From a virus: a stretch of DNA of 34,459 nucleotides. The stretch covers positions 1 to 34,459 of the IMG/VR virus record IMGVR_UViG_3300008217_000029; one strand, written 5' to 3'. Of this stretch, positions 1,111 to 24,949 are shown piece after piece. The notes beneath the pieces are model-generated. The model saw nothing but the letters and a program-made list of their open reading frames with translations. It was not told the DNA's origin and did no database searches. Position 1 is the first letter of the stretch. Every line of letters begins with the position of its first letter. Both the position numbers and the translations under genes were made by a program.

Positions 1111-2157
1111 TTAAAAGATTACATAATTTACTCCACACTTAAAGTCATACCATTCTCTATTCCAATATTTATTATATTTTCCCTCTACAAATGTACCTAA
1201 ATGCTTATTTAATTTATATCCAAATATCACTCCACCTGAATAATCATACCATTGTTCTCCATCGTTATAGTTATGATAAGAGAAAGCTCCGCCATCATCA
1301 TAGTGCCAAGGCATTAAGTTAGTCCAAGCGTGTAACCAAAAATCTTTCTTATAGTAATAGTAATCTAAACCTACCACTAACGACTGTTGCATAGTTCTAT
1401 CTAACTCATCTCTTTTTCTTTCTGTGTAATTAGCTAACATTTCAGGTATAACAACCTCTTCCCAAACTTCTGGACTTGTAGCAACTACATCACCACTTGG
1501 ATCTGTATAAATAGAATTATATACATCTACATTATATCCTTCTTGTAAAGCTAAATAAGTATAATGTATTCCACCGTTATCTAATAACCACTCTTCTAAT
1601 GGATCGTAACCATACGGCTCTGACATTCTTTGAACAGCGCCTATATTAAGAGATAACTTACCTATATTATATCTATATCTTTGTGATGTTTCAAAATATT
1701 TTATATCCGCGAAACCATCTTGCAAGTATTCACCCTTTAGTATATACCAATTACCCACGTATCTTATAAAATGATTTTGATCTGTATAATCTATACCTTC
1801 TTGTCTTTTTATATCAGCTTCAAACAAAAATTCTAATCCTTTTACTTTACCTATATTAGCTCCATCAGACCATGAGTTCTCAGTACCGTCATAAAACGTT
1901 TGGGCTTTATTTTCATAACCAAATCTAGCAATTTTCCTTATTCCAAACGCTAAGTTGTAATCAAATGGAGTTTGTATTGTCGATGTTTCTAATCCATTCG
2001 TAACAGAGAACACATCTACGTCTGATAGTGATGTACCCCCACTAGCCGCTGCGTAAAACGTAGAGAATTTAAACGTCTTCTTACAGAATGCTTTATAATC
2101 AAACTGAGCGTAAGCTATATTTGATATTAATAAAATTAGTAATATTAACTTTTTCAT
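1111..2157 (-). CDS. Secreted protein, candidate outer-membrane beta-barrel (348 aa)
   Basis: Starts MKKLILLILLISNIAYAQ, a clear Sec signal peptide with cleavage expected after AYA, as in Flavobacteriia. The mature part is dominated by aromatic and polar alternation (ENKAQTFYDGTENSWSDG; HFIRYVGNWYILKGEYL; GVIFGYKLNKHLGTFVEGKY) and ends YVIF with a terminal Phe, as in many outer-membrane barrels. No enzyme motif was seen. The ATG overlaps the TGA of the giant gene (ATGA), indicating coupling. A phage-encoded exported barrel could alter the host surface, for example in superinfection exclusion, or assist lysis. Virion location is less likely because of the signal peptide. Barrel topology is inferred by eye. 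Confidence 0.7.
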   Translation of the reverse strand: MKKLILLILLISNIAYAQFDYKAFCKKTFKFSTFYAAASGGTSLSDVDVFSVTNGLETSTIQTPFDYNLAFGIRKIARFGYENKAQTFYDGTENSWSDGANIGKVKGLEFLFEADIKRQEGIDYTDQNHFIRYVGNWYILKGEYLQDGFADIKYFETSQRYRYNIGKLSLNIGAVQRMSEPYGYDPLEEWLLDNGGIHYTYLALQEGYNVDVYNSIYTDPSGDVVATSPEVWEEVVIPEMLANYTERKRDELDRTMQQSLVVGLDYYYYKKDFWLHAWTNLMPWHYDDGGAFSYHNYNDGEQWYDYSGGVIFGYKLNKHLGTFVEGKYNKYWNREWYDFKCGVNYVIF

Positions 2158-5100
2158 TTGAATACTGGTAGTTTAGTTTTTTTCCTTTTGGATTTTTTAC
2201 CCCTTGTCTTTTCTTTAATCTTTTCCATCTTTTCATTCTCAACATCAAGATTATATTGACTCCAACCGCCAAACATAAGTACTCTTTGATAAGCTTCGTG
2301 TTGATTATTTAAAGATTGTCTCGTATTTTGCGTCTTATTATACATTCTATTAGTTGGCGCGTTTGTAGTAGCTTCTATGTAATTAGTAACAGCAGACCAC
2401 ATTGGGTTGTCAATATCAAACGTTTCCATTTCGTCTATAACTTTCTTATTATAGTTAAGAGTTTTTTCAGCATTAACCATTTTCCTAGCTTTAATACCGA
2501 GTGGTGGTGATACATTTAACATTTCCATTAACACTGAGCTTTCGTCTGGATTATAATTTTTATCTCTTTGTTCGTGCCATTTAATTGCCATATTTTTTGC
2601 GGTAGCAATAACTGCTCCCCAAACACCAGTACCTCTTAAAACAGAATCAATGCTACCATTAACCACTCTTTCTTTCTTCTTCAACCATCTTTCATCTTCT
2701 TCGTCATCATCAAATAGCGCTAGAAACAACGCTGACTGTAAAGAATAGAATATTAAATTCTGTATTACAAAGTAATAACTTATCCTAGAAAGATTAGATA
2801 TATCACTTTGGAATTGCGTTGTGTTACCAGGTGTTATTCTTCTATTTTTAATATCTAAAAATGCTTTCTTACCTAATCTATTAAACTGAGAGGTAACATT
2901 TTGAAAAGCAAGTATAACTTTTCCAAGTGGTGAAGCTTGTTGTTGAGAAACCATGTCAGGTCTAGCTGATTGCTGAGTAGCTTCTGCTAAAACTTGAAAA
3001 TCTATCCAAGCTTTAGACTCAGCTTCTTTTTGACTCAACCCTTGTTTTAAATAAGTATTAATTCTATTTCTATAAAAAGTTGATCCGCCAGTAGCGATCG
3101 CCATATTATCCCCAATCTGTGTTGGTAAGAATCCAATCTCTAATAATTTCTTTATTGCTGCTTGGAATGGGTTTTTAGCGTCTTTAACTGTTCGTGCCAA
3201 CTCTGCTCCGTTAACATCTGTTTGAATTCCGCGACGCCTTTGCTTCATGAAATCGGAATTAAAGATTGTAGCCCAATCAGTCCAATACTGTTTTTGATTA
3301 GCAAAAGCCTTAGCTGCTGCAAATATGTTATTATCAGCGAAGTTAATAAAATTAACCATAGACATTTGCTGCAACACGGCCGACCTCATATTAAAGAACA
3401 TAGTAGAAGCAACGGATCCGTTTAAATAATTCATAAATCCATTCACTAATTTATTTTGTCCACTTGGTCTGTTTCTACCAGTTTCGGTTCTATAAAGTAT
3501 ATCTTTAATAGCACTCACCATACCCTCTCCGTAAGCGGCTTCTATTTTGTTTAGATTTTCTTGAGAGAATATTATTTCAGCGTTTTCATTAAACTCAGTA
3601 AAGAATTGTTCTCTACCAACCCTGCCGGTAGCATCATCTAAATCTGTTCTTATATCTCCAGCTTCCCAACTTTCAGAGGGTTTTACATAGGTTTCTTGCT
3701 TAGATATTATATTTAAAGTTTCAGCATAAGTTTGTAATTCAGCATCTGCCATAACTAAATCAACTAATTTTTGTTGATCAGTTTTGTTTAACCCAGGAAC
3801 CTTATGCCCATGTTTATCCCATAAATACACCCTTATAGCATCTTGGTGTGTAAAATCACCGTCTGGAGTTTTCTTTGTTAGTTTATTTTTAACATTTTTA
3901 AACTCTTTGTTTAATGATTTGTAATCATTAGCAATAGCTTGTTTAGCTGTATTCAACTCTCTGTAAGCTCTATTTAATGGTCTTACTAAAGCTTTTTCAA
4001 AAAAGTCTCTATGTTGATTTCCTTTTTTACCTTTACCTAAAAAGTTATATATTATCCCTACAAAATCTTCATGCGATGGCGGTATAAAGAATCTAAACTT
4101 ACCTTTATCAGCTCCGCGTTTTCTAGCTTTAATAGCTGAGAATCTCTTTTTAGATTCAATACCGGTTACATCTTCTAATATATCATTAAATTCAGTGTTC
4201 ATTGATTTACTAAATTTAATACCAGTTTTAGGTAAACCTTTAGCATCAGGATCTACTTCTAAAACTTTTTTAAGATCTATTCTTACTTTACCATCAACCG
4301 TTTTTATAACATTTTTTAAATCAGAATTTTTTTCCGCTACTTTCCATCCTATCTCTGTTACTTGATCCCTTAATTTAACTTTTCCATACATATAAGCAAT
4401 ATCTCCTTCAGTAATTTGATGCGATAATATATCTCCTTTTTTCCTAACTACATCCTCCACATTCATATCTCCAAAAGGTTGACCATAAGTATTAACAGCA
4501 CTCATTCTGCCGTCTGGAAAAAAATTATATGAAGCTATAGCTTTCCCGTCTTTATTAAACTCTTTTGTTGCAACCAACCAACCGCTAGGGTTGTACCGTG
4601 TAGATTTAACTACTATACTATTAACTCTATTTTCTACGATTTTAGTTCCAGCCATATAACCGGTTTCTTGGGCTGCTAATATTCTTGTTGTAACAGTTTT
4701 CTTATCTGCACTAACTATTCGAGTTTCCCTAACGAATTCTTGAATCTTACCGTCTATATTTGCAAGTTCTACTTTCTTAGTAACTCTACCTTCTTTAATT
4801 TGTATAACAGGAGCGTCTGTAGCGCCATCCATTCTATCCCAATACAAACCATTCGCGTAAAAGGATGATAACCTACCGTTTTGAAATACTATATGCTTTT
4901 TTGAATCTCTATATCCTATCCAATCAATCCAAGCATCATCTGTAAGTTTCCCATTTCTAGCTTGCGTTAAACACCAAGGATTAGAGTTCTCACCCCAATG
5001 ACTATTTATAATATCTCTAACAGCTTGCATCCCTTCTTTAGTATCTTCAACCTCATGAACTGTAATACCGTATTTCTTGTTGAAAACTCTACCTTCACCA

Positions 5101-8100
5101 AATTCTTTTACTTTATTTGGATTAAGAGGTTTCGCTTTAACTTTACCAGCATAAGCCTCTATAATTTCATTAGGATTATTATAAGAGAATAAATCTAATT
5201 TAAATCTTTCCGCTAAATTAATAGCATCTGTTATTTTAAATCTATCTTCTAATAGTTTTATATTACTAGTTGCCAACCATTTAGTGGTTATTCTCTCGTA
5301 TTTTCTCTTTTTATCAATAGGAATATTTAAACTGTCTATAAAGATAAACATATTATCTATAGTTTTAGATACTAACTTATCTCTAACTAAATCAGGGCGA
5401 TGTTTTGCTAGTGTTTTCTCATACTCAGTCCTATGACTTTTAGAAAACTTAATATTGTTATAATTGTTAGGACCACCTAAATTATTAATATCTCCAAGTT
5501 CAGACTTTATTGATTCTTCTTTACTTTTCATCTTTTCGCCTTCAACACGTTGACGTTTAGCCAGTTGAACACTTCTTTTAACATCGAACTGCTCTAACAT
5601 GTTATCAACAGCCTGAATATTCTGTAAAGCGTCATCTGCAAAGTATATGTCATTATAACCCTCACCAACTTTATCTGCTATCCATAAAGCTTTAGATTCT
5701 GATGTAGAAGATTCCAATGTAATTATATTATCAAAAGGTATGTTCAAACCTTGAGCGTCTAAAAATCTATATATAGCCATTTTAGCGGCGTGTGGTCTTG
5801 CTGTTAATATATAATTATCTTTTAAACCGTATTTTTTAGCCCTATCCATTGCCTTACCAAATAAAGGCCCTTTCTTACCTTCTTTTACTATATCAAACTC
5901 TGAGAAGTCAAATTCCCCATCCTGCTCTAGTATAGTAGCACCTTCATTAGCAAACTCCTCAGCACTTAACCTACCTTTAATATATCCTTTAGTAAATTTA
6001 TCCATTTTACCAATAACGTTTTGTGGCATTGCGTCCCCTATTTTGAGGTTGTCTGTTTTAACTTCTGCAAAATTATCACCAAATAATTTCTTAAACGCTT
6101 CTTTATTATTCTGTACCGACTCATGAGTTCTTTTTACTATACCGTCTCTTAATGAACGTTCTTTTCTAGCGCGATTTCTTTCCAATGCTGTTTCTAGAGA
6201 CGTTTCAACAAACACCATTTGCACATCGTAACCTTTATTTTTAAATTCTTGAACATGGTTTTTCATTTGTTGCAAACTATTACCAGTTCCATCTACAATA
6301 ATACCATCTCCTTGACCTTGAAATTTAGACTGTTTACGCTTAGCTATCATTCTAGCATCCCACCCAAGTGAACCGAACTTACTAGCTTGTTCTGGTGTAA
6401 AATCTTTCATGTCTGTAGGTAGGCCATGATTTTTCATTAACCATTCTAACGATATATCTTGATTAACAATCTTGAATCCTTGATTTTTTAAATCTAAACC
6501 TTTTATTACAGTTGATTTTCCAGAACCAGGACCACCAGCCATAAATATAACTTTTCTACCAGGTTGAGGTGTACCTTCTGGGTTTGGCATTGTATACCTA
6601 ACACCAGATTTTGTTCTAGCAACTGTATCATCAAAATCCCAAGCACTCATACCTCTAGTTGGATTTTTAGATGAGCGAGAAAACTTAGACGCATTATCAA
6701 TCGCTTTTCTTTTGTGTATATTTCTACTTAAAGGTGATTTAGTCGCGTTTGTCTTGCTATATTTTACCCCTGTTTCTTCAAATTGATTTATTATTTCTTG
6801 TCTAGCTTCGCTAGGACTTAAATGGCTAACGCTAAACTCCTCAGCTACATTATTTTCAGACTCAAGAAGCTCAATAGTAAATGGATCAAGACCATGTTTC
6901 ATTAATCTGTATATACCAGCGTGTCCATCTTTTAATTTTAAACTACCATCAAGTATTCTAGGTAGTACTTTATTACGAAAATCAATACCTAAAGAAGCTT
7001 TATAAACACCACTAGGATCGTTTATTTCTAATATAGAAAATTGACCTAACATTGCTTTTAATAGAGGTGTAATATTTTTAACGTTACCTGTTATAGCTGC
7101 ACCCACACCAATCTTAACTATCTCATTTATAGGTGTGTGTTCTTCAACAACGTCCTCAATCCCAATCTTATTATTTTCGTCAACTTGATGACCGTGTAAA
7201 TTAGCAGACTTTCTCCAGAAATTATTTTGATCTAAAGACGAGTGAATTACTAATTCATCAAACAACCAAATATCATTCTTATTTAAATCAGTTTTGAACC
7301 AAGTTTCTACATCTTTAAAAAACTGTAAAAAATTGTCAAACTTCTCCTTTTCATTCGTTTTTGTAAAGTCTAAATTTGCCGGGTTTTTTGCTTTTTTCTT
7401 TTTATGGTAATAAAATCTTTTAGCAACAATCTTTTTAGCACCCCTTATTTTTTTAGTTATAGGTACAAGCTTTTCAAAATGAGGCATTACTATATAAGCA
7501 GATCTATCCCCTCCCGTAAGCAATTCTTTTAACACGGCATAATGTTGAGGGTATTTATCTAAAAACTTATTCAGCCTATTACTCATACGTCGCTCCCACG
7601 TTACACCTAGTTTTTCATTCCAAAGAGCATTCACCATCTTTATAATTGCTGTTTTTTCTTCTATTGTACCTTTTATAAGATCTTCTTTCATAATAAGAGC
7701 AAAATCTCTTGGAATTGATTTTTGTCCCATTATTTCAGCAAAGTTACCATCCATCCATCCTTGCACTTGCTCCAAGAAAGGAGCGTTTAGATTAAAAGCG
7801 GTGTTAAATTTTTCATCAAGATCTTTCTTACGTATATCAACAAGCTGCTTAGCCATATTAATATCGCTAGAATCAAGTTTATATTTGTATATTATTTGTT
7901 TCCACGCTTTACTATTAGCACCATCGCCTTCTACAACTTCATGTGATAATTTAAGGATACCTTGACTACGAGAGAATTTAACAGTATCAAAAGTTCTGTT
8001 TTCAGTTTTTTGCTTATCTAACCCATTTAAGAAATTATCTATTTCAGCTTCTACAACTACATCAATATCATTAGAGTTTTCTATCTTAAACTTGTTAACA

Positions 8101-11100
8101 GCGTCTTTAGTGAGAGATTTAGCGATAAGTTCTGCTAATTTTTTTTGTCTCGCTAATAAAGTTGTATAACCACCCTCTATAAAAAATTTAGTAAACCTAG
8201 CTTTATTAGTCTCTATACTATATATACCTTTACCAGGATATGTTACCTTACCAGTTTCAGGGTTTACTCTTTTATCTTTCTCTCTACCTACTTTCTTTAT
8301 ATCAAATAAAGTCTTATAATTCTTTTTTATAGTGTTAACATCAAGAGCTTTTATGTGGTTTGCATAATTTAAAGCGTGATAAGCCTTATATTCCTCGCTA
8401 GCAAAACCCTCTACTGTTTTGGTAACCTTACCCATTTGTTTTTTAACAGCTTTCATAAACTCTTTTTCTATAAGAGCGTTTAATTGCTTAGTTAAATTTT
8501 TAGGATTTTGCTCCAATATATTAACCACTTTATTATAAATGGTTTGAGATACTACATCTTTATTATCAAGATTAACATCACTTAGACTTTTTAGTTTTCT
8601 AGCCTTTTTACTTGGTTTTGGTTTTGTTGGCTCTGGCGCTTTAATATCTTTAGCTTCTGATATATCTACACCCATTTGTTCTGTACCACCAATAGCTTTA
8701 GCTCTAGTGTATATTTCAGGCTGCCTATTTCTTAAGGTGGCATCTAGAAATGTTGTTACTTTATTTTCTTTGTTATATATATCAAACAAAGGTTTATTAC
8801 GACTTATTTTACTTCCATCTGGTAGCGTGACTTGAGGAAATATACCTAACATTTGTTCGTTTACAGCTTCTTTTACAGCCTGTATAGGTATATTACCTGT
8901 TGGATCAAATTTTAATGCTTTGCTAATTATAGGCCAATTTTTTTCTATTATAGCTTCAGCAGCACCAAATCTATCTTCTGGCGTTGATTGTGGAGATTGT
9001 TCTATATCAACTAGTGATTCATTATCTATTTCAGCATCTAAAAATTGCTGTGCTCTTGGACTGGTTTTAGATAGTTTCATGTCTGTAACAGCAACACCTT
9101 CACCAGCTAATGCTATAGCTCTAGCACTAAGTTGGTTTTTCTCTATACTTTTTTGGTAGTCTTTCATGAAATTATAAACTTGCCTACCATCTGCAAATTC
9201 TTTTTTGATACCAAACTTTCTAGCAATTTCTTGAACAAAGTTTTTCAATTTATCAAAAACGCCTTCATTAAAAGTTATATCACCTTTTGTTAATCCATCA
9301 GAAAATACAGTTAACCATTCTTCTGTAGTGTTAATATTTAAATCTTCACCAGTTTTAATTCTACGATTAATTTCTGTTTCTACGTAGTTTCTCTGATCTT
9401 CAGTTAAAGTATTTTTGAAACTTGAGATCAATTTAGTTTGTCCCTTAACATCTAAACTTTGCATGTGTTTAGCTATAACGCCGTGTAGCACCTCATGAGC
9501 GCCCACGTTTATTTGACCTGTTTTGCCAGCTATATCTTTATTTATAATAATAGAATCACCAACGATAAAACCATCAGAACCTGTAACGTCTTTAGCGTCT
9601 AAACCCATTTCTTTTGCTATCTTATCATAAGTTGCTTGTGCTGATAAATCATTTTCAGCTATAAGAACATCTTTACCTATTTTTTTACCAGCGGCTTCTG
9701 CAAAAGCAATAGTTTTAGATATAGATATATCACGTCTAGCTTTAGCAACTTCTTTAGCTATTGCTGTTTCTCCTACATCTACAGCACCTTCATATTTACC
9801 AATTATTCCTTCTATTTCAGCTTCCAAGACTGCTAACTCTTCTGCAGCGTTAGGAACTTTATCAATTCCTTTCTTTTCAGCTTCTATTTGTTTTAATTGT
9901 CTTTCTTGTTCTAATTTAACTAAAGTTTTCCTATCATCCTTGTCTGTTATTTTCTCATCGATTTGAGAATCTATAATAGCTTTGTTTTGTTTTCCGTGAG
10001 CTTTTTTATCTAAACCTGTTTGGTCGTTTTCAATTTCTAGATTAGCCATAGCAATATCCATATCGTCTGCGGTATCCACAAAATCCTTCATCTTAGCATA
10101 AGAAACTTTCTCCCCATTAATTTTATATACTGGTTTTTTCCCAAGTAAAGCCATACCAACATTTATAGGGGCTGTTGTTGTACCTGTTATAGCTTCAAAT
10201 CCAATTTCAGCTGGATCCATCTCTTGACCAGCAACGACTCGACCTGCAACCTCACCGATACCACCACCAGTAGCTTCAACACCAAGACCAGCTGCAACGG
10301 CAGTTATTTTTTTAGTTCTACCCGCTATATTTGCTGTTTTTAAAACACCTGTAGTTGCTTTACCAGCTAAACCACCGGAAAGAGTTTCTATCGCACCGAT
10401 AGTTAAACCTCTACCAATAGATTTATTTCTTATTTCTTGACCTTTAGGACTTTGTAAAAGTTCTAATATATTATCATCAGTAAATTCCTTACCTTCTTTT
10501 TGTAGTTCTGCTTCTATTAACTCTCCAAAAGTTAAAGCTGTTTCCATAGCTGTAGCGGCGCCACCTAAGGTTGCTGTAACACCACCAACGGCAGTTCCAA
10601 TACCAGGAATGAAACTACCAGCTGCAGCACCACCAGCGGTAGCGCTTGCTGTCCATTTTCTAGCTTCAGGTGAATCAGCTAAAGTACCAAGTTGAGTACC
10701 AATTGATTGAACAAACATTTCAGCCATTAAACCTGGGTCTTTTTTTATACCTCTAAAAAACGCCGCCCAAGTTTTACCTTCTTTTTCATATTGAGTGCTA
10801 AACCTTTTCATACGTTCAGAGGGTTTGTAATCCTCTGCTTCAGCTTGTTTTGCTCTTATAAATTCTTGAACAGAATCTTTAGATACATTAGAACCTTGTT
10901 TCCACATGTCCAATGATTCACCAGACGTACTAGCAGCCTCGTAACCACCAATACCCGCTCTATATAAATCACCAATAAAATTAACAAATCCTCCTGAATC
11001 TTCTATCTCTTCTTCTTCTAACGCTAAACCTACAGACACACCTGGTTGAATATCTTGCTTTGAATATTTCGTTTTAAAAGAATCTATATTTTTAGTGTAA

Positions 11101-18535: not shown

Positions 18536-19138
18536 TTATTGATTAATTACAGGTGTATTGGTTACCATCCCTATTCCTTGTGTTGAAAATTCTTGAGTAT
18601 CCAAATTACCACTAGCTCCAGATATTGGAGCTAAAGATCCTCCGTCTACGGACGTTCCATTCTTCCATATTGTTTTTTCCCCTATTATATAGTTAAACCA
18701 TTTACCTTCTTTATTTATAAATTCACCTTGCCACTCTCCTGTTTTAATGTTCTTACCACCAGGAATCATACCTGTTTGTTGATCTGTTGTTATTAAATTA
18801 GCATACCAGCCTAATTTAGGTTGATTATTGTAATATTTTCCATCATTCGGGTTTTCTATTACTTTAGATTGACTTCCTTCGTAATTTAAAGTTGTAAAAC
18901 TTTTTATAACGCTAGGTAAATCATTAAATAAAACTGTTATAGAGGATCGAGTGTTAATACTTCCACTGACATCGTAAAAACTATTTCTATCTACAGAATC
19001 ATCATGATGCTTCCATAATATACCGCTCAACGCTGTGTAGTATTCATTATTTAAACTAAAACCAACTTCTGGATTGATAGTTTTAAAACTTGCCCACCCT
19101 CTTGATCTCTCGCTAAAACTTATAGTTATGTTTGCCAT
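18536..19138 (-). CDS. Detached C-terminal domain of the large tail protein (200 aa)
   Basis: 200-residue protein starting at ATG 19136-19138. It opens ITISFSERSRGWASFKTINP, continues VGFSLNNEYYT and LWKHHDDS, and later has SVIKSFTTLNYEGSQSKVIE and GKWFNYIIG. In phages I remember, this block directly follows the YDxRKxxYNVTL segment at the end of the large tail protein, forming one polypeptide. Here it lies in the same reading frame as the 1927-residue gene but is separated by 27 nt containing two more in-frame stops after the first TAA. It is therefore best read as a gene fission product that still assembles with the tail protein. Start choice is clear: ATGGC in an A/T leader. Confidence 0.7.
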   Translation of the reverse strand: MANITISFSERSRGWASFKTINPEVGFSLNNEYYTALSGILWKHHDDSVDRNSFYDVSGSINTRSSITVLFNDLPSVIKSFTTLNYEGSQSKVIENPNDGKYYNNQPKLGWYANLITTDQQTGMIPGGKNIKTGEWQGEFINKEGKWFNYIIGEKTIWKNGTSVDGGSLAPISGASGNLDTQEFSTQGIGMVTNTPVINQ

Positions 19139-19165
19139 TATAATGTTTTATATTTGTTTTCATCT

Positions 19166-22100
19166 TTAATAACCTTTACCTTCTCCTCCACCTGTATCGC
19201 TACTTCCTCTACCTCTACCGCTACCTCCACCGCTACCTCCACCGTTTCCTCCACCGTTTCCTCCACCGTTAGTTCCACCATTATCATCGATAATAATTCC
19301 ACTACCACCACTAGTAGTGATACCACCTCCACCAACCGTTATAACTCCTCCCCCTATTACGCCACCGCCAATTGATACTTTTGGTAAATAATCTATTAAA
19401 GTAACGTTATATAATGATTTTCTACTATCATAACTACCTATTATTTTATTTGCAGTTTTTAAATTATCTGCAAACCAATCTTTCATACCATGATCTGATA
19501 TAGGTGTTAATCCATCTCTTGATAATCTCATTACAGCACCTCTTTCTTTATCTGTAAAATAAGCTCTAAACGATTCTGAAGCAAATGATTCTGGATTTTT
19601 AGATATTCCAAATTCACCAACAAATGGAATAGTATTACCTAGAACATTACTTGTAGCTGTTATATTTCTAGTATCATCAGCATTATATAAAGCGTCTTTA
19701 TTCGATAATACTTTCAAAACTTTATCTTCACATAGCGTAACTAAATCAGTATCTCTCGTGTGTAATTTTTGTATACTACCATATTCAGGGTTTAAATCTT
19801 TAGTAATATTTTCAGCCATTATAAACTGATTTAATCTATTTACACCATTCATAGAATTATATATTCCAGAGAATATCAACCCGCTTTTTCTATGTTCTTC
19901 TTTATATTGTTCAGCTAACGTGGTAGATGCTTTAACGCCTTTATCTATAGTTACAGCATTAAATAAATCTCTAATTCTATTTGATTCTACTCCATTACCA
20001 AAAGTATAACAGTTGTAATATGGTAACGTTTGGTTTTCACCGTGTACTAATGCGTTTAAGAATATTTGGTTTTGAGTTTGATAAGTACTTGCGGCTATTG
20101 ATCCCCAAGCACTATAAGGCCATTGAGTATCAAAAGCAACAGTAGCTGTTACTATAGTTCCATCTGGATTTGTAAACGACAGTATATCACCTTCATTTAA
20201 TACTTGACCATTATTAAGCTCTAATAAAGTTGACGGTTGAGTTGATCCAGTTGGAATACCCCCCTCACAACCAGTTATAGAAGTTACAGTGGTTGGTATG
20301 GTGGTAGTGGAGATTGGAATCGTAGCGCCACCTGTAAAAGTAAATACCGTTCCCGCTGGCATAGTTGGACATGGTGCATAAACTATATTACCACCGGCAT
20401 TCCACGCTGCATCGCCAAGGACAATAGCTTGTTGGTTTTGGTTTGGTCCTTGGTTTGTTTGAAGTTGATGGATAACTGTGTTTGGCGGTATATTACCACC
20501 GGAATCTGTAATACCCATTCCAACTGTTATATTAGCATATGGTGCGTCCAAAATTATCCATTCACTTAAACCTGGGGTCGAGAAAGTGCACCAAGAAGCT
20601 TGAGCCCCAGCATGTGTAAAAGTATTTCCCCCAGTAGTGTGGCCGCTAGAAAGAATAGTTGTAGGTGTTCCTGATACGTAATTTGTTGTAACTGTAGCTC
20701 CGTTAAGAATCATATTAACGTCATCCCAGCCACTCAAAGTATGTGTTCCTTGTGTATTAGACCGGTACATAGATACTGTTGCTCCAGGTTGTATATACAA
20801 CTCTTCAGTGCCATCACACATATTCACAGGGTAGTTTTGTCCTATTTCATAATAAATATCTAATCCGACATCTTCTTTAGGCTCTGTTTCCCAAATAGCT
20901 GGATGAGTTGGCATATCTTGTTTTTGATCATAGTAAGGTTCAACAAATTCTATACCAGCCTTAGTTATTGTACCACCCATATTATCAAGACAATCATTAG
21001 CACCAGGACCTTCTGGGGTAATATTAGTGTTTGGAGGTTCGGTTGCTCTATAGACATTACCGGTATTTTGACCTCCATAAGCCACGGCCCCTGCGCCAGA
21101 ATAAGTTCCTGCAAAAAGATTCATAGGTATTCCGTTTGGATTATTTGTAGGGTCTTTTGAACCAGGTTCTATCAATTTTAGCGACCACCTTACTCGAAAA
21201 TCAGCCCATCGGGGCTGATACCTTTCCTGACCTACTACATGAATATTATCCCAATTTCCATCCATTTCCATTACATTATTTAGATGGTAAGTCTTTGAAA
21301 CACTACCAATCTCATACTCGATATTATCTGGATCATCTATAAATCTAAATATTTTTCCAGATGATGATATTCTTTGTATAAACTCAGCTTCACCTTTATG
21401 TAAACCACCAATATTTTTCCATGTGTTTCCACTAGTATGCCTGAATGGCCAATTCCTTGTCCCAATCCAAGATATATCTATTTGATCATTACCTTCTACG
21501 GCTCCTACACCGGTATCTGACGTAAGTGCTACAATATCCGCGCCATACGTAGATGACGTCCCAGCAGTCACACCTAAAAGCCTATATGTAGGTTCTTGAT
21601 CTATAAACCACCAACCACCTTCAGCACCACCGGTGCTACCAGCGTTACTATTTGCCCATGGAGTACCTGGTTGTATTGCATTACCACCACTATAGTGCGC
21701 TAAATTTAATTCTGATATATAGAAACTAGTCATATCACTTCCTCTGGTTGGTTGGAGTGCATTTAAGTCACTGTAACGAGGATAAATATTACCGGTGGTA
21801 GGATTAGTATAAACCCCAGTTCCACCTCCACTAACCGCACCTATCTCATAAGCAAGAAAATCTTCACCCCAAGTTGGGTCGTCCGCAACAGACGTATAAT
21901 GATCCCCAAAAATACTTAAATCCTGACCTTCAATAATCTCTGGAGCTAGAGGATTTTGAGTAGAGTTGTAACCCATATAATAAAACAACTTTTGACCTTG
22001 AACAAGTCTAGCCGTTGCATCCGCTTTCGATTTAATATGGGTTTGAAACACTCTTTCTTCTCTGTCATCATGTATTTTAACAAAGAATCTACCATCGAAT

Positions 22101-24949
22101 TCAGGTTTATTTTCAATTATCTTTTTTTGTATCTCTACAACTAAATCTGATATAGCTGTACCCGAAGTATTTCCAGTTGACGTGAACGCCATATCATCAC
22201 CAAAAGCTTCTGTTACAACTATTTTATAATCTTGCGTGGCTGTATTCTTAAAAGTTATATTTATAATATCATACCAGTTTGAATGGGTTGTGTTATTGCT
22301 AGTCTTTACACGCATTTGTAATGAAGCATCTCTATCGCCCAATATACTTGAATAAAGCGATTGTTGGTTGTTCATGAATTGTAAACTAGCTAATTCACTA
22401 TCTTCCCACTGTGTTTTCTTGATTTTAATGCTTTTACTTCCTTGGAGTGGAAATCCTGTAAAATGACCAGGACTATTAGTGGTTGTAGCGGCATCAAATA
22501 TAGCTAATATTTCCTCTGTTGTTTTTATAAAATCCGGGGCTTCATTTTTAATAGCCAAAACCTTATATCTAGAATACTCTTCTACAGCCTCAGCTTCCTC
22601 TCCAACACCTTTTTTTAATATCAATGTTGTTTCTTCATCAACCTTGTTCCTATCTTCTGAAGGAAATGACAACCAAATACCTTCGTCTTCACCGTCATAC
22701 CAACGATCCATAGCTAGATTATAATATTCGTTTGAAATTTCTTTTACAAAGTATTTAAAAGAATCTGCCCAAAACGGTGGTGGGGTTATTGTTTTTATTG
22801 CTAAAGAATTTGATGTAGCTGCACGAGAGTGTTCTACTTTAATAACACCACTAGGGTGTGTTATCACTGGTGTTTCTCTACCGTAAATGTCTTTATAAAC
22901 AACACCCAATTGATAAGTCCTAACCGATTTTAATGACTTTTCAGGAAAATTTTTAATGTGTACAGGATCGCTATCCAGATACAATTGAAACTCTGGTTTC
23001 ACTTCTTCATCAGTATTAGAAATTAAGTTATAATTTTGTAAATAATTACCATAAATTAATCTGTTACCAGTTACTTCTTGTCCTAAAGCTTTTCTAGGGA
23101 CATTGTCCCAAGGCCTTAATAATTGATTTGAAGCAACTACAGCATGTATTAAATCGTCTTTTATTTCAAAATATCCTCTGTAATCACCAGTCCCACTTAT
23201 ATTCCATTCTGGATCTTTATCATCAAATGATCTTATTGTATATATATTAGGGGAATCAGATTCTTTATATAAAATATCTATTTCAATAACGTCTAATGGT
23301 ATATTTGGAGGAATAAAATCTTTTATAACCAATTTTTTCAAATCATTTGTCATACCTAAATTATAACCTTTTTTAGGATGATAATCAAATTCACTAGGTA
23401 AAAATGCTATTTCAGAAAATGGAGAGAACGCAGAGTACTCACCATCTTCATATTTGTATCTATAGCCAAATTTAGGAAATTTTAATTCATATAAAGAATC
23501 TTTTTTAGGTTTAAGTTCTATATACCATGTTTTAAGTGTATTATTATCTATTTCAGCTAAAAATAAATCACTAACAAATATTATTTTAACTTCTAGATTA
23601 CCATTAGTAGGAGACTCAACAAGTAAAGGATTAGTAGATGTTGAATCTGAAGATGTTACAACTAGTTTTACTTTTATCGGTCCTCCACTCGAATCTGAGC
23701 ACTCTAACACGTCTCCAACACGAAAATCAACTGGTAAATCCAACTCTATCATAGTATTATTACCTGCTGGATCGCTATTAACTTGTTGTGAGGTAGTACC
23801 AGTTTTATACACACCTGTTAAAGCGCCGACCGTACCGTAGAACATAAATTGTGATACTTGTCCTGAAGTAGGATTAACAACTCCATTTGCGTCCAATCTT
23901 TGGATAGCACTACTCATCTCTAACCTAGGAGGCATTAACGGAGATTTCTTTATAACTGTAATATGTCTTTCTTGGAGATATTCTTGTATACCAAAAGGAG
24001 GATTTAGCAGTATACCATTATGAGACGTGTTTATTATCGTTGCTTCATCAACTACAAGTTCAGTGTGTGTTGTTCCAGGGACTGTAATTCCGTTAAACGT
24101 ATAAGGATTTGCAGAGTTTTGATTAACATTACAAGCTTGACATACACCTAAGCTAGGTATTGAACCTTCTTTTCCTCTTGTTATATTTACTTTTTTTGGC
24201 TCAGAATAATTATCTGTCCAAAATAGCATGTCATCAACTATATTAACACCCGTTATAAGTCTATCACTACGAAAGTTAAGAACTCTACCTCCTGGTCCAC
24301 AGCAGTCATTTGCGGATCCAGATATAAAATTTACATTATTTAAAGGAAGTGGTGGTAGTGGCCCGAAAGTGGATCGAATATGACTTGATAAAACCACTGT
24401 GGTAGATGTAGGTATTTCCGTTATTATAGGATAGGGTTCTTTTTGAGTAAAAGATAACAAACCACTACCACCCCAAGTCGCTTGCATACCTATTCTTAAT
24501 CCATTTGTACTAACTACCGTATATATTAAATCACCGCTGGGAGAGACAGATCTATCAGTAATTTTAGTACGTACGTTATAAATATCAACTATTACAGGGA
24601 GTGTTTCGTTATTAACGCTGTTATATTCAACTACAAGATCGGAAGATACCACGTGAAGAGCTTCAAGTGCCGTTGATGACATTGGTGCTGGTGGTTTACC
24701 TGCTATAAAATAGTATACTTTGTTAGTTTTATCATCTGTAATACTACCTACGCACGCACTGCTATCGTCTGGCACAAGATTAGAAATCAAACTATTTCCT
24801 AAACAAGTTTGTACAGTACCCACATTAGATCCTTCTGAAGTTAAAACCTCAACATTTAACGCGTCTCTATACTCACTATTAGGCACTAATCTTTCGTCTA
24901 AGTCTTTATTCATTCGACCAGACGTAAACGTGTGTTTTAACTCTGGCAT
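19166..24949 (-). CDS. Large tail protein (1927 aa), stabilisation/tube type
   Basis: Very large beta-rich virion protein in the slot occupied by T7 gp12 (tail nozzle), though far longer than its about 790 residues. The N-terminus reads LKHTFTSGRMNKDLDERLVP followed by NSEYRDALNVEV, a start I associate with large tail proteins of marine Bacteroidota phages. Residues about 150-160 (NGLRIGM) and about 1473-1500 (NITVGMGITDSGGNIPP) resemble the GLxVGM beta repeat also found in the 1133-residue appendage gene. Residues about 1700-1850 include the C-terminal segment IIGSYDSRKSLYNVTLIDYL, then a Gly/Ser/Asn low-complexity tail. In relatives as I remember them, this segment runs straight into a domain that here is the next gene. 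The start ATG follows the adaptor stop by 4 nt. Confidence 0.7.
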   Translation of the reverse strand: MPELKHTFTSGRMNKDLDERLVPNSEYRDALNVEVLTSEGSNVGTVQTCLGNSLISNLVPDDSSACVGSITDDKTNKVYYFIAGKPPAPMSSTALEALHVVSSDLVVEYNSVNNETLPVIVDIYNVRTKITDRSVSPSGDLIYTVVSTNGLRIGMQATWGGSGLLSFTQKEPYPIITEIPTSTTVVLSSHIRSTFGPLPPLPLNNVNFISGSANDCCGPGGRVLNFRSDRLITGVNIVDDMLFWTDNYSEPKKVNITRGKEGSIPSLGVCQACNVNQNSANPYTFNGITVPGTTHTELVVDEATIINTSHNGILLNPPFGIQEYLQERHITVIKKSPLMPPRLEMSSAIQRLDANGVVNPTSGQVSQFMFYGTVGALTGVYKTGTTSQQVNSDPAGNNTMIELDLPVDFRVGDVLECSDSSGGPIKVKLVVTSSDSTSTNPLLVESPTNGNLEVKIIFVSDLFLAEIDNNTLKTWYIELKPKKDSLYELKFPKFGYRYKYEDGEYSAFSPFSEIAFLPSEFDYHPKKGYNLGMTNDLKKLVIKDFIPPNIPLDVIEIDILYKESDSPNIYTIRSFDDKDPEWNISGTGDYRGYFEIKDDLIHAVVASNQLLRPWDNVPRKALGQEVTGNRLIYGNYLQNYNLISNTDEEVKPEFQLYLDSDPVHIKNFPEKSLKSVRTYQLGVVYKDIYGRETPVITHPSGVIKVEHSRAATSNSLAIKTITPPPFWADSFKYFVKEISNEYYNLAMDRWYDGEDEGIWLSFPSEDRNKVDEETTLILKKGVGEEAEAVEEYSRYKVLAIKNEAPDFIKTTEEILAIFDAATTTNSPGHFTGFPLQGSKSIKIKKTQWEDSELASLQFMNNQQSLYSSILGDRDASLQMRVKTSNNTTHSNWYDIINITFKNTATQDYKIVVTEAFGDDMAFTSTGNTSGTAISDLVVEIQKKIIENKPEFDGRFFVKIHDDREERVFQTHIKSKADATARLVQGQKLFYYMGYNSTQNPLAPEIIEGQDLSIFGDHYTSVADDPTWGEDFLAYEIGAVSGGGTGVYTNPTTGNIYPRYSDLNALQPTRGSDMTSFYISELNLAHYSGGNAIQPGTPWANSNAGSTGGAEGGWWFIDQEPTYRLLGVTAGTSSTYGADIVALTSDTGVGAVEGNDQIDISWIGTRNWPFRHTSGNTWKNIGGLHKGEAEFIQRISSSGKIFRFIDDPDNIEYEIGSVSKTYHLNNVMEMDGNWDNIHVVGQERYQPRWADFRVRWSLKLIEPGSKDPTNNPNGIPMNLFAGTYSGAGAVAYGGQNTGNVYRATEPPNTNITPEGPGANDCLDNMGGTITKAGIEFVEPYYDQKQDMPTHPAIWETEPKEDVGLDIYYEIGQNYPVNMCDGTEELYIQPGATVSMYRSNTQGTHTLSGWDDVNMILNGATVTTNYVSGTPTTILSSGHTTGGNTFTHAGAQASWCTFSTPGLSEWIILDAPYANITVGMGITDSGGNIPPNTVIHQLQTNQGPNQNQQAIVLGDAAWNAGGNIVYAPCPTMPAGTVFTFTGGATIPISTTTIPTTVTSITGCEGGIPTGSTQPSTLLELNNGQVLNEGDILSFTNPDGTIVTATVAFDTQWPYSAWGSIAASTYQTQNQIFLNALVHGENQTLPYYNCYTFGNGVESNRIRDLFNAVTIDKGVKASTTLAEQYKEEHRKSGLIFSGIYNSMNGVNRLNQFIMAENITKDLNPEYGSIQKLHTRDTDLVTLCEDKVLKVLSNKDALYNADDTRNITATSNVLGNTIPFVGEFGISKNPESFASESFRAYFTDKERGAVMRLSRDGLTPISDHGMKDWFADNLKTANKIIGSYDSRKSLYNVTLIDYLPKVSIGGGVIGGGVITVGGGGITTSGGSGIIIDDNGGTNGGGNGGGNGGGSGGGSGRGRGSSDTGGGEGKGY
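19219..19278 (-). repeat. 12-bp tandem repeat coding for a Gly-rich tail
   Basis: Five consecutive 12-bp units, on the plus strand CGCTACCTCCAC twice, CGTTTCCTCCAC twice, then a degenerate CGTTAGTTCCAC. They encode GGGS/GGGN-type repeats at the C-terminus of the 1927-residue tail protein. Such arrays change copy number readily by slippage. Confidence 0.85.

Follow-up and report, generated by a model that had tools for sequence, protein, structure and literature searches.

In a giant protein of a marine phage, we found that a P-loop kinase is inserted into a HAD phosphatase, and homologues whose insertion site is naturally empty prove that the kinase is truly an insertion. The protein is encoded in a 34,459-base virus record from IMG/VR, hereafter named the window. 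All HAD and kinase motifs lie within one 3027-aa frame, at the residues reported in a preliminary description of this DNA. The order given there was also borne out, i.e. HAD motif I, followed by a complete P-loop kinase, and only then HAD motifs II to IV (Table 1). The full motif set of HAD phosphatases (DxDx[T/V], S/T, K and an acidic pair) is present. The preliminary description had in addition bounded the unit by FSRS motifs: FSRS/FSKS sequences are indeed found at residues 1518 and 1930 of the window protein, and FSKS directly follows the HAD in several homologues, but the upstream copy is missing in many of them. In the 3027-aa protein, the broader pattern [KR][FYL]S[RK][ST] recurs at residues 721, 1087, 1492, 1518, 1930 and 2341. 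These repeats, situated at apparent domain boundaries, are possible candidates for processing or linker sites.

Table 1. Features of the HAD-kinase unit and of the protein that contains it (window positions, strand and residues of the 3027-aa protein).
Feature	Residues	Window position	Strand	Basis or remark
Giant multidomain (polyvalent-type) protein, 3027 aa		2154..11237	-	One open frame; contains the HAD-kinase unit
HEVLH zincin-type metallopeptidase motif	581-585	9483..9497	-	Motif match only; bears on the assignment as a polyvalent protein
HAD core, N-terminal piece: strand S1, motif I (D1534, D1536, T1538), first flap strand	1530-1551	6585..6650	-	Motifs, alignment with HAD-only units, model strands E12-17 and E29-34
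HAD motif I, DFDDT	1534-1538	6624..6638	-	Motif position
Inserted P-loop kinase	1552-1752	5982..6584	-	Pfam, invariant residues, fold matches
Kinase Walker A, GPGSGKST	1569-1576	6510..6533	-	Motif position
Kinase IVNQD (includes D1594)	1590-1594	6456..6470	-	Motif position
Kinase D1649-G-T1651	1649-1651		-	Within the inserted kinase
Kinase lid, RNRARKERSLRDG (R1687/R1691/R1694)	1687-1699	6141..6179	-	Motif position
HAD core, C-terminal piece: second flap strand, motif II T1812, motif III K1849, motif IV D1868/D1869	1753-1893	5559..5981	-	Motifs, alignment, weak PHROG 415 match
HAD motif II, ILTAR	1810-1814	5796..5810	-	Motif position
HAD motif III, K1849 in SESKALW	1849		-	Motif position
HAD motif IV, FADDA	1866-1870	5628..5642	-	Motif position

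IMG/VR was searched with the unit and the search was then widened, yielding 155 distinct units, that of the window included. Two classes of homologues came out of it, one collinear with the window and one with the same HAD but without the kinase: 99 units are HAD-only, 55 are fused HAD-kinase units, and one carries another insert. From D1534 to D1868, every one of the 99 HAD-only units spans 135 residues, whereas the fused ones span 334 (38 units), 337 (12 units) or 332-335 (5 units), and the HAD parts of the two classes reach 60-63% identity. Alignment of the filled site, VRYTMPNPEGTP-[kinase]-YIKGRLSAEEFA, with the empty site of HAD-only units, VKYTTPDGKTGTLNAEQYA, puts the break just past motif I, at the loop of the beta-hairpin flap. 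In the structural model of the window unit (pLDDT 80.6, pTM 0.65), the kinase is bracketed by strands 29-34 and 235-240; in the HAD-only model (pLDDT 68), the same segments lie six residues apart, as strands 29-32 and 38-41. A C1 cap is by definition a segment inserted midway in the flap hairpin of a HAD (PMC8069645), and the predicted position of the kinase corresponds to such a cap. Since the alignment, the model strands and this definition agree, the earlier proposal that the kinase occupies the HAD cap position is correct. Two trivial explanations were discarded: a chance association of two unrelated motifs, given 99 empty and 55 filled homologues of near-constant spacing, and an assembly chimera, given the same architecture across many independent contigs.

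Both active sites are conserved. In all 55 inserted kinases, residues G1571, G1573, K1574, D1594, D1649, T1651, R1687, R1691 and R1694 are invariant. The residue following the Walker lysine is more variable among 99 kinases examined, being S in 52, T in 17 and G in 30; GKG is also present in adenylate kinases. On the HAD side, T1812, R1814 and K1849 are kept in 155/155 units (with the register shifted by a one-residue insertion in one of them, L061), as are both aspartates of motif I; motifs I and IV were partly retrieval criteria in this census, T1812 and K1849 were not. When the search was made with the kinase pattern only, the HAD residues were again present in nearly all complete matches. 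One exception in that search is the fused homologue L261, in which the motif IV segment of the HAD is lost and the kinase is intact. Loss of the HAD catalytic residues in close homologues, which the preliminary description had named as evidence against its reading, was thus not what we observed. Between close pairs, dN/dS ranges from 0.05 to 0.21 for the kinase and from 0.03 to 0.19 for the C-terminal HAD piece, so that both domains are under purifying selection. With catalytic residues essentially invariant, both are likely to be active.

We found that the kinase is a movable cassette that has passed between phages. On the HAD tree, five changes of state are needed to account for the carriers, and a single carrier clade is rejected (p-AU 0.0006). 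In five carriers (L048, L050, L057, L058 and L066), the flanks of motif I are 95% identical to HAD-only relatives (versus 80%), and in the first four the C-terminal HAD is 83-85% identical to HAD-only relatives (versus 68-70%). The kinases of these five nonetheless nest among those of the main carrier clade, with identities of up to 85%. From these sequences, the simplest reading is transfer of the kinase as a cassette through a double crossover. One ancient insertion followed by vertical descent only is excluded by the HAD tree and the mosaic flanks. Two fused HAD-kinase giant genes (L076 and L105) were also observed on opposite strands of one contig, IMGVR_UViG_3300025131_000066.

The nested layout is found in the window and about 99 homologues. 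A tandem layout, in which an uninterrupted HAD is directly followed by a kinase of the same family, was found only in L284 and L285 (approximately locus positions 1900-3080). Two independent tandem domains, the outcome that would have spoken against nesting, are therefore absent from the close homologues but do exist in these two distant relatives. Among 104 kinase-bearing frames, the HAD piece is absent in only three, all at contig ends, and of the HAD-only records among 50 records searched whole, none carries the kinase elsewhere. Because of the tandem pair, the rarity of these exceptions and the HAD-only records devoid of kinase, we consider the kinase as tied to the HAD, in two geometries; kinase and HAD are thus functionally linked. 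In the single unit with another insert (L115, IMGVR_UViG_3300031957_001881, positions 2551-3003), this flap position is taken by an unrelated domain, roughly 144 residues long, that matches ART-PolyVal weakly (E 0.0011, below the cut-off); a search for this ART-like insert found it in no other contig. Tentatively, and with more doubt than confidence, the flap may be a cap-exchange site, where unrelated catalytic domains would be swapped by phage recombination, each becoming the lid and having its active site coupled to that of the phosphatase.

We then compared the two domains with known families. The kinase matches Pfam Zeta_toxin (PF06414) with an E-value of 8.8e-13 (48.6 bits, for a curated cut-off of 22.3), and AAA_33 with a slightly lower score (E 3.1e-12), also above the cut-off. 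The HAD half of the window protein is under the Pfam detection limit. Of the 31 homologues scanned, 11 match PHROG 415, "polynucleotide kinase", with a best E-value of 7e-5, and in the window the match lies over the HAD half. In BFVD, one virus relative is annotated as a UDP-N-acetylglucosamine kinase, and database entries of related virus proteins are otherwise uncharacterized. With the model of the whole unit, Foldseek returned T4 PNKP and Pnkp1 as first matches. The closest folds to the kinase are the Pnkp kinase of Clostridium thermocellum (Z 16.9), O-phosphoseryl-tRNA kinase (16.0) and T4 Pnk (about 15), and further neighbours are adenylate kinases (about 14) and zeta toxin (13.9). The HAD-only model has the Rossmannoid HAD fold and matches many HAD structures. 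It is closest to the Pnkp1 phosphatase domain (Z 9.4 and 9.2 upon VIA-align re-scoring), followed by the C-terminal domain of Nir2 (8.0) and class C acid phosphatases (7.3). The value of 9.4 is only modestly above that of unrelated HADs, for a model of low confidence (pLDDT 68), so this likeness is suggestive, not decisive. Foldseek gave nothing at E <= 0.001 for the same model, its first rows being DegV/FakB proteins, and for this reason only the re-scoring is informative. A profile search of the HAD against PDB entries gave no direct sequence link, and a profile alignment with T4 PseT extended no further than motif I and the residues that follow.

Fold similarity and genome context together suggest a role in end-healing, its substrate, packaging of the protein and the use of a ligase. 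In the scheme we propose, the unit is one HAD phosphatase in which a P-loop kinase of the polynucleotide-kinase/zeta type, complete and seemingly active, has opened the flap hairpin, the C1-cap site. The kinase would phosphorylate 5'-OH ends and the HAD would remove 3'-phosphates; a phage or host ligase could then seal the ends that host nucleases had broken, and the protein would be packaged and delivered with the phage DNA. In our judgement, there is about an even chance that the unit is such a PNKP-like enzyme for end processing, delivered by the virion and arranged in a new domain geometry. An ATP-dependent DNA ligase (PF01068) is found in 12 of 50 records, including all 8 records of at least 57 kb; ligases occur in both the fused and the HAD-only record classes, and are common in phages generally. 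In a profile alignment made with hhalign, the acceptor-site residues R38 and D85 of T4 Pnk fall on L1597 and G1650. As they have no counterpart, the phosphate acceptor may differ from that of T4 Pnk. Further points count against end-healing: in sequence the kinase scores slightly higher as Zeta_toxin, 99 of 155 relatives do without it, and capped HADs favour small metabolites, PNKP being of the uncapped C0 type (PMC8069645).

This preference of capped HADs for small molecules is also what would be expected of a metabolite cycle, in which a zeta-like small-molecule kinase (acting on a UDP-sugar, a nucleotide or NAD) and a small-molecule HAD phosphatase act on the same or a related compound and rewire host metabolism on entry. 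Zeta_toxin is the best Pfam match, the zeta fold is among the structural neighbours, the BFVD annotation points the same way, and the zeta catalytic Asp67 and UNAG-contacting Thr118 have counterparts in D1594 and T1651. Arg120, which contacts the UDP phosphates and completes the UNAG-contacting set, falls on N1653, a variable position (N/G/A), however, and the kinase fold is nearer to polynucleotide kinases, as the HAD is to the Pnkp1 phosphatase. As this arginine is missing, we favour end-healing over UDP-GlcNAc phosphorylation. More generally, having weighed the folds, PHROG 415, the ligases and the Arg120 position, we favour the PNKP-like role and regard a metabolite cycle, its main rival, as unlikely.

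The exact C1-cap site, the near-constant insert length and the unrelated ART-like domain at the same site in L115 would also suit a kinase serving mainly as a regulatory lid, whose ATP-driven motion gates the phosphatase, its own substrate being secondary. Every kinase catalytic residue is kept, though, and in the tandem relatives the kinase cannot be a cap, which makes this reading improbable. Repair of RNA may be considered as well, i.e. the healing of tRNA cut by host anticodon nucleases, as done by T4 Pnkp with Rnl1 or by Pnkp1-Rnl-Hen1, and Pnkp1 of the latter complex is among the fold neighbours. Yet a search for members of the RNA_ligase family gave matches in no more than 2 of 50 records, in each case on a frame scoring higher as DNA ligase. 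Since the matches are so few and lie on ORFs of the DNA-ligase type, a tRNA or RNA repair role is little supported, and we hold it to be very improbable.

The delivery part of the end-healing proposal comes from the genome around the unit. Homologues of the 3027-aa protein are frames of 2500-4500 aa, and terminase and portal homologues are among the other genes of the window. Being giant, multidomain and encoded in the midst of virion genes, the 3027-aa protein is probably packaged with the phage DNA, and we infer delivery because gene position, size and the HEVLH zincin motif fit the published phage polyvalent proteins, which are likewise giant and multidomain, lie near virion genes and have a zincin HExxH (PMC5512222). 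Text searches of that paper gave no HAD, zeta or polynucleotide-kinase domain, and the kinases found there are protein kinases. The closest cultured relatives of the window terminase and portal are those of phages of Flavobacterium, Cellulophaga, Maribacter and Tenacibaculum. Two frames of 200 and 1927 aa (window 18539-24949, minus strand) were matched above the Pfam cut-off by models of the crAss-like muzzle protein. Small proteins with signal-peptide-like starts are encoded at 247-612 and 1111-2157 (minus strand), one being thioredoxin-like and one resembling an outer-membrane beta-barrel, as judged by eye; these features fit a Bacteroidota host. PADLOC gave a single weak match (VakA, E 0.0036). 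Neither the HAD nor the remainder of the 3027-aa protein was found in any of the phage records searched. Cellular homologues are limited to 9 contigs, all from metagenome-assembled genomes, and these are probably viral carry-over.

How does the unit compare with known systems? T4 PNKP (PseT) and bacterial Pnkp1 likewise combine a P-loop kinase and a HAD phosphatase in one polypeptide, but in tandem and with the kinase first, whereas the kinase of the window unit interrupts the HAD, between its motifs I and II. Human PNKP has the phosphatase before the kinase, an order seen in tandem in L284 and L285; unlike it, the window unit is nested, has no FHA domain, and resembles it in sequence only in the P-loop region. 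Zeta/PezT UNAG kinases share with the window kinase the GT motif and the catalytic aspartate, but the latter lacks the Arg120 equivalent and sits in the middle of a giant phage protein. Kinases of the marine T4-like phages HTVC008M (AGE60463.1) and Melnitz (QZI95068.1) belong to the same subfamily, being 36-40% identical over the kinase and sharing its VQxNxxxFxxLFG-like C-terminal signature, but are free-standing proteins of about 220 aa without HAD motifs. We rate the unit as one that would work like PNKP, yet departs from its tandem domain arrangement.

A literature search limited to open-licence PMC papers found no description of a P-loop kinase as a HAD cap. In known kinase-phosphatases the domains lie side by side; here one enzyme lies within the other, at the position where HADs ordinarily gain the caps that select their substrates. 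The empty, nested and tandem versions present in nature constitute a rare test set for how a domain insertion creates a bifunctional enzyme, and bear on whether a kinase can act as the lid of a phosphatase. If the end-healing proposal is true, abundant marine phages would carry end-repair in a protein entering the host at an early stage of infection.
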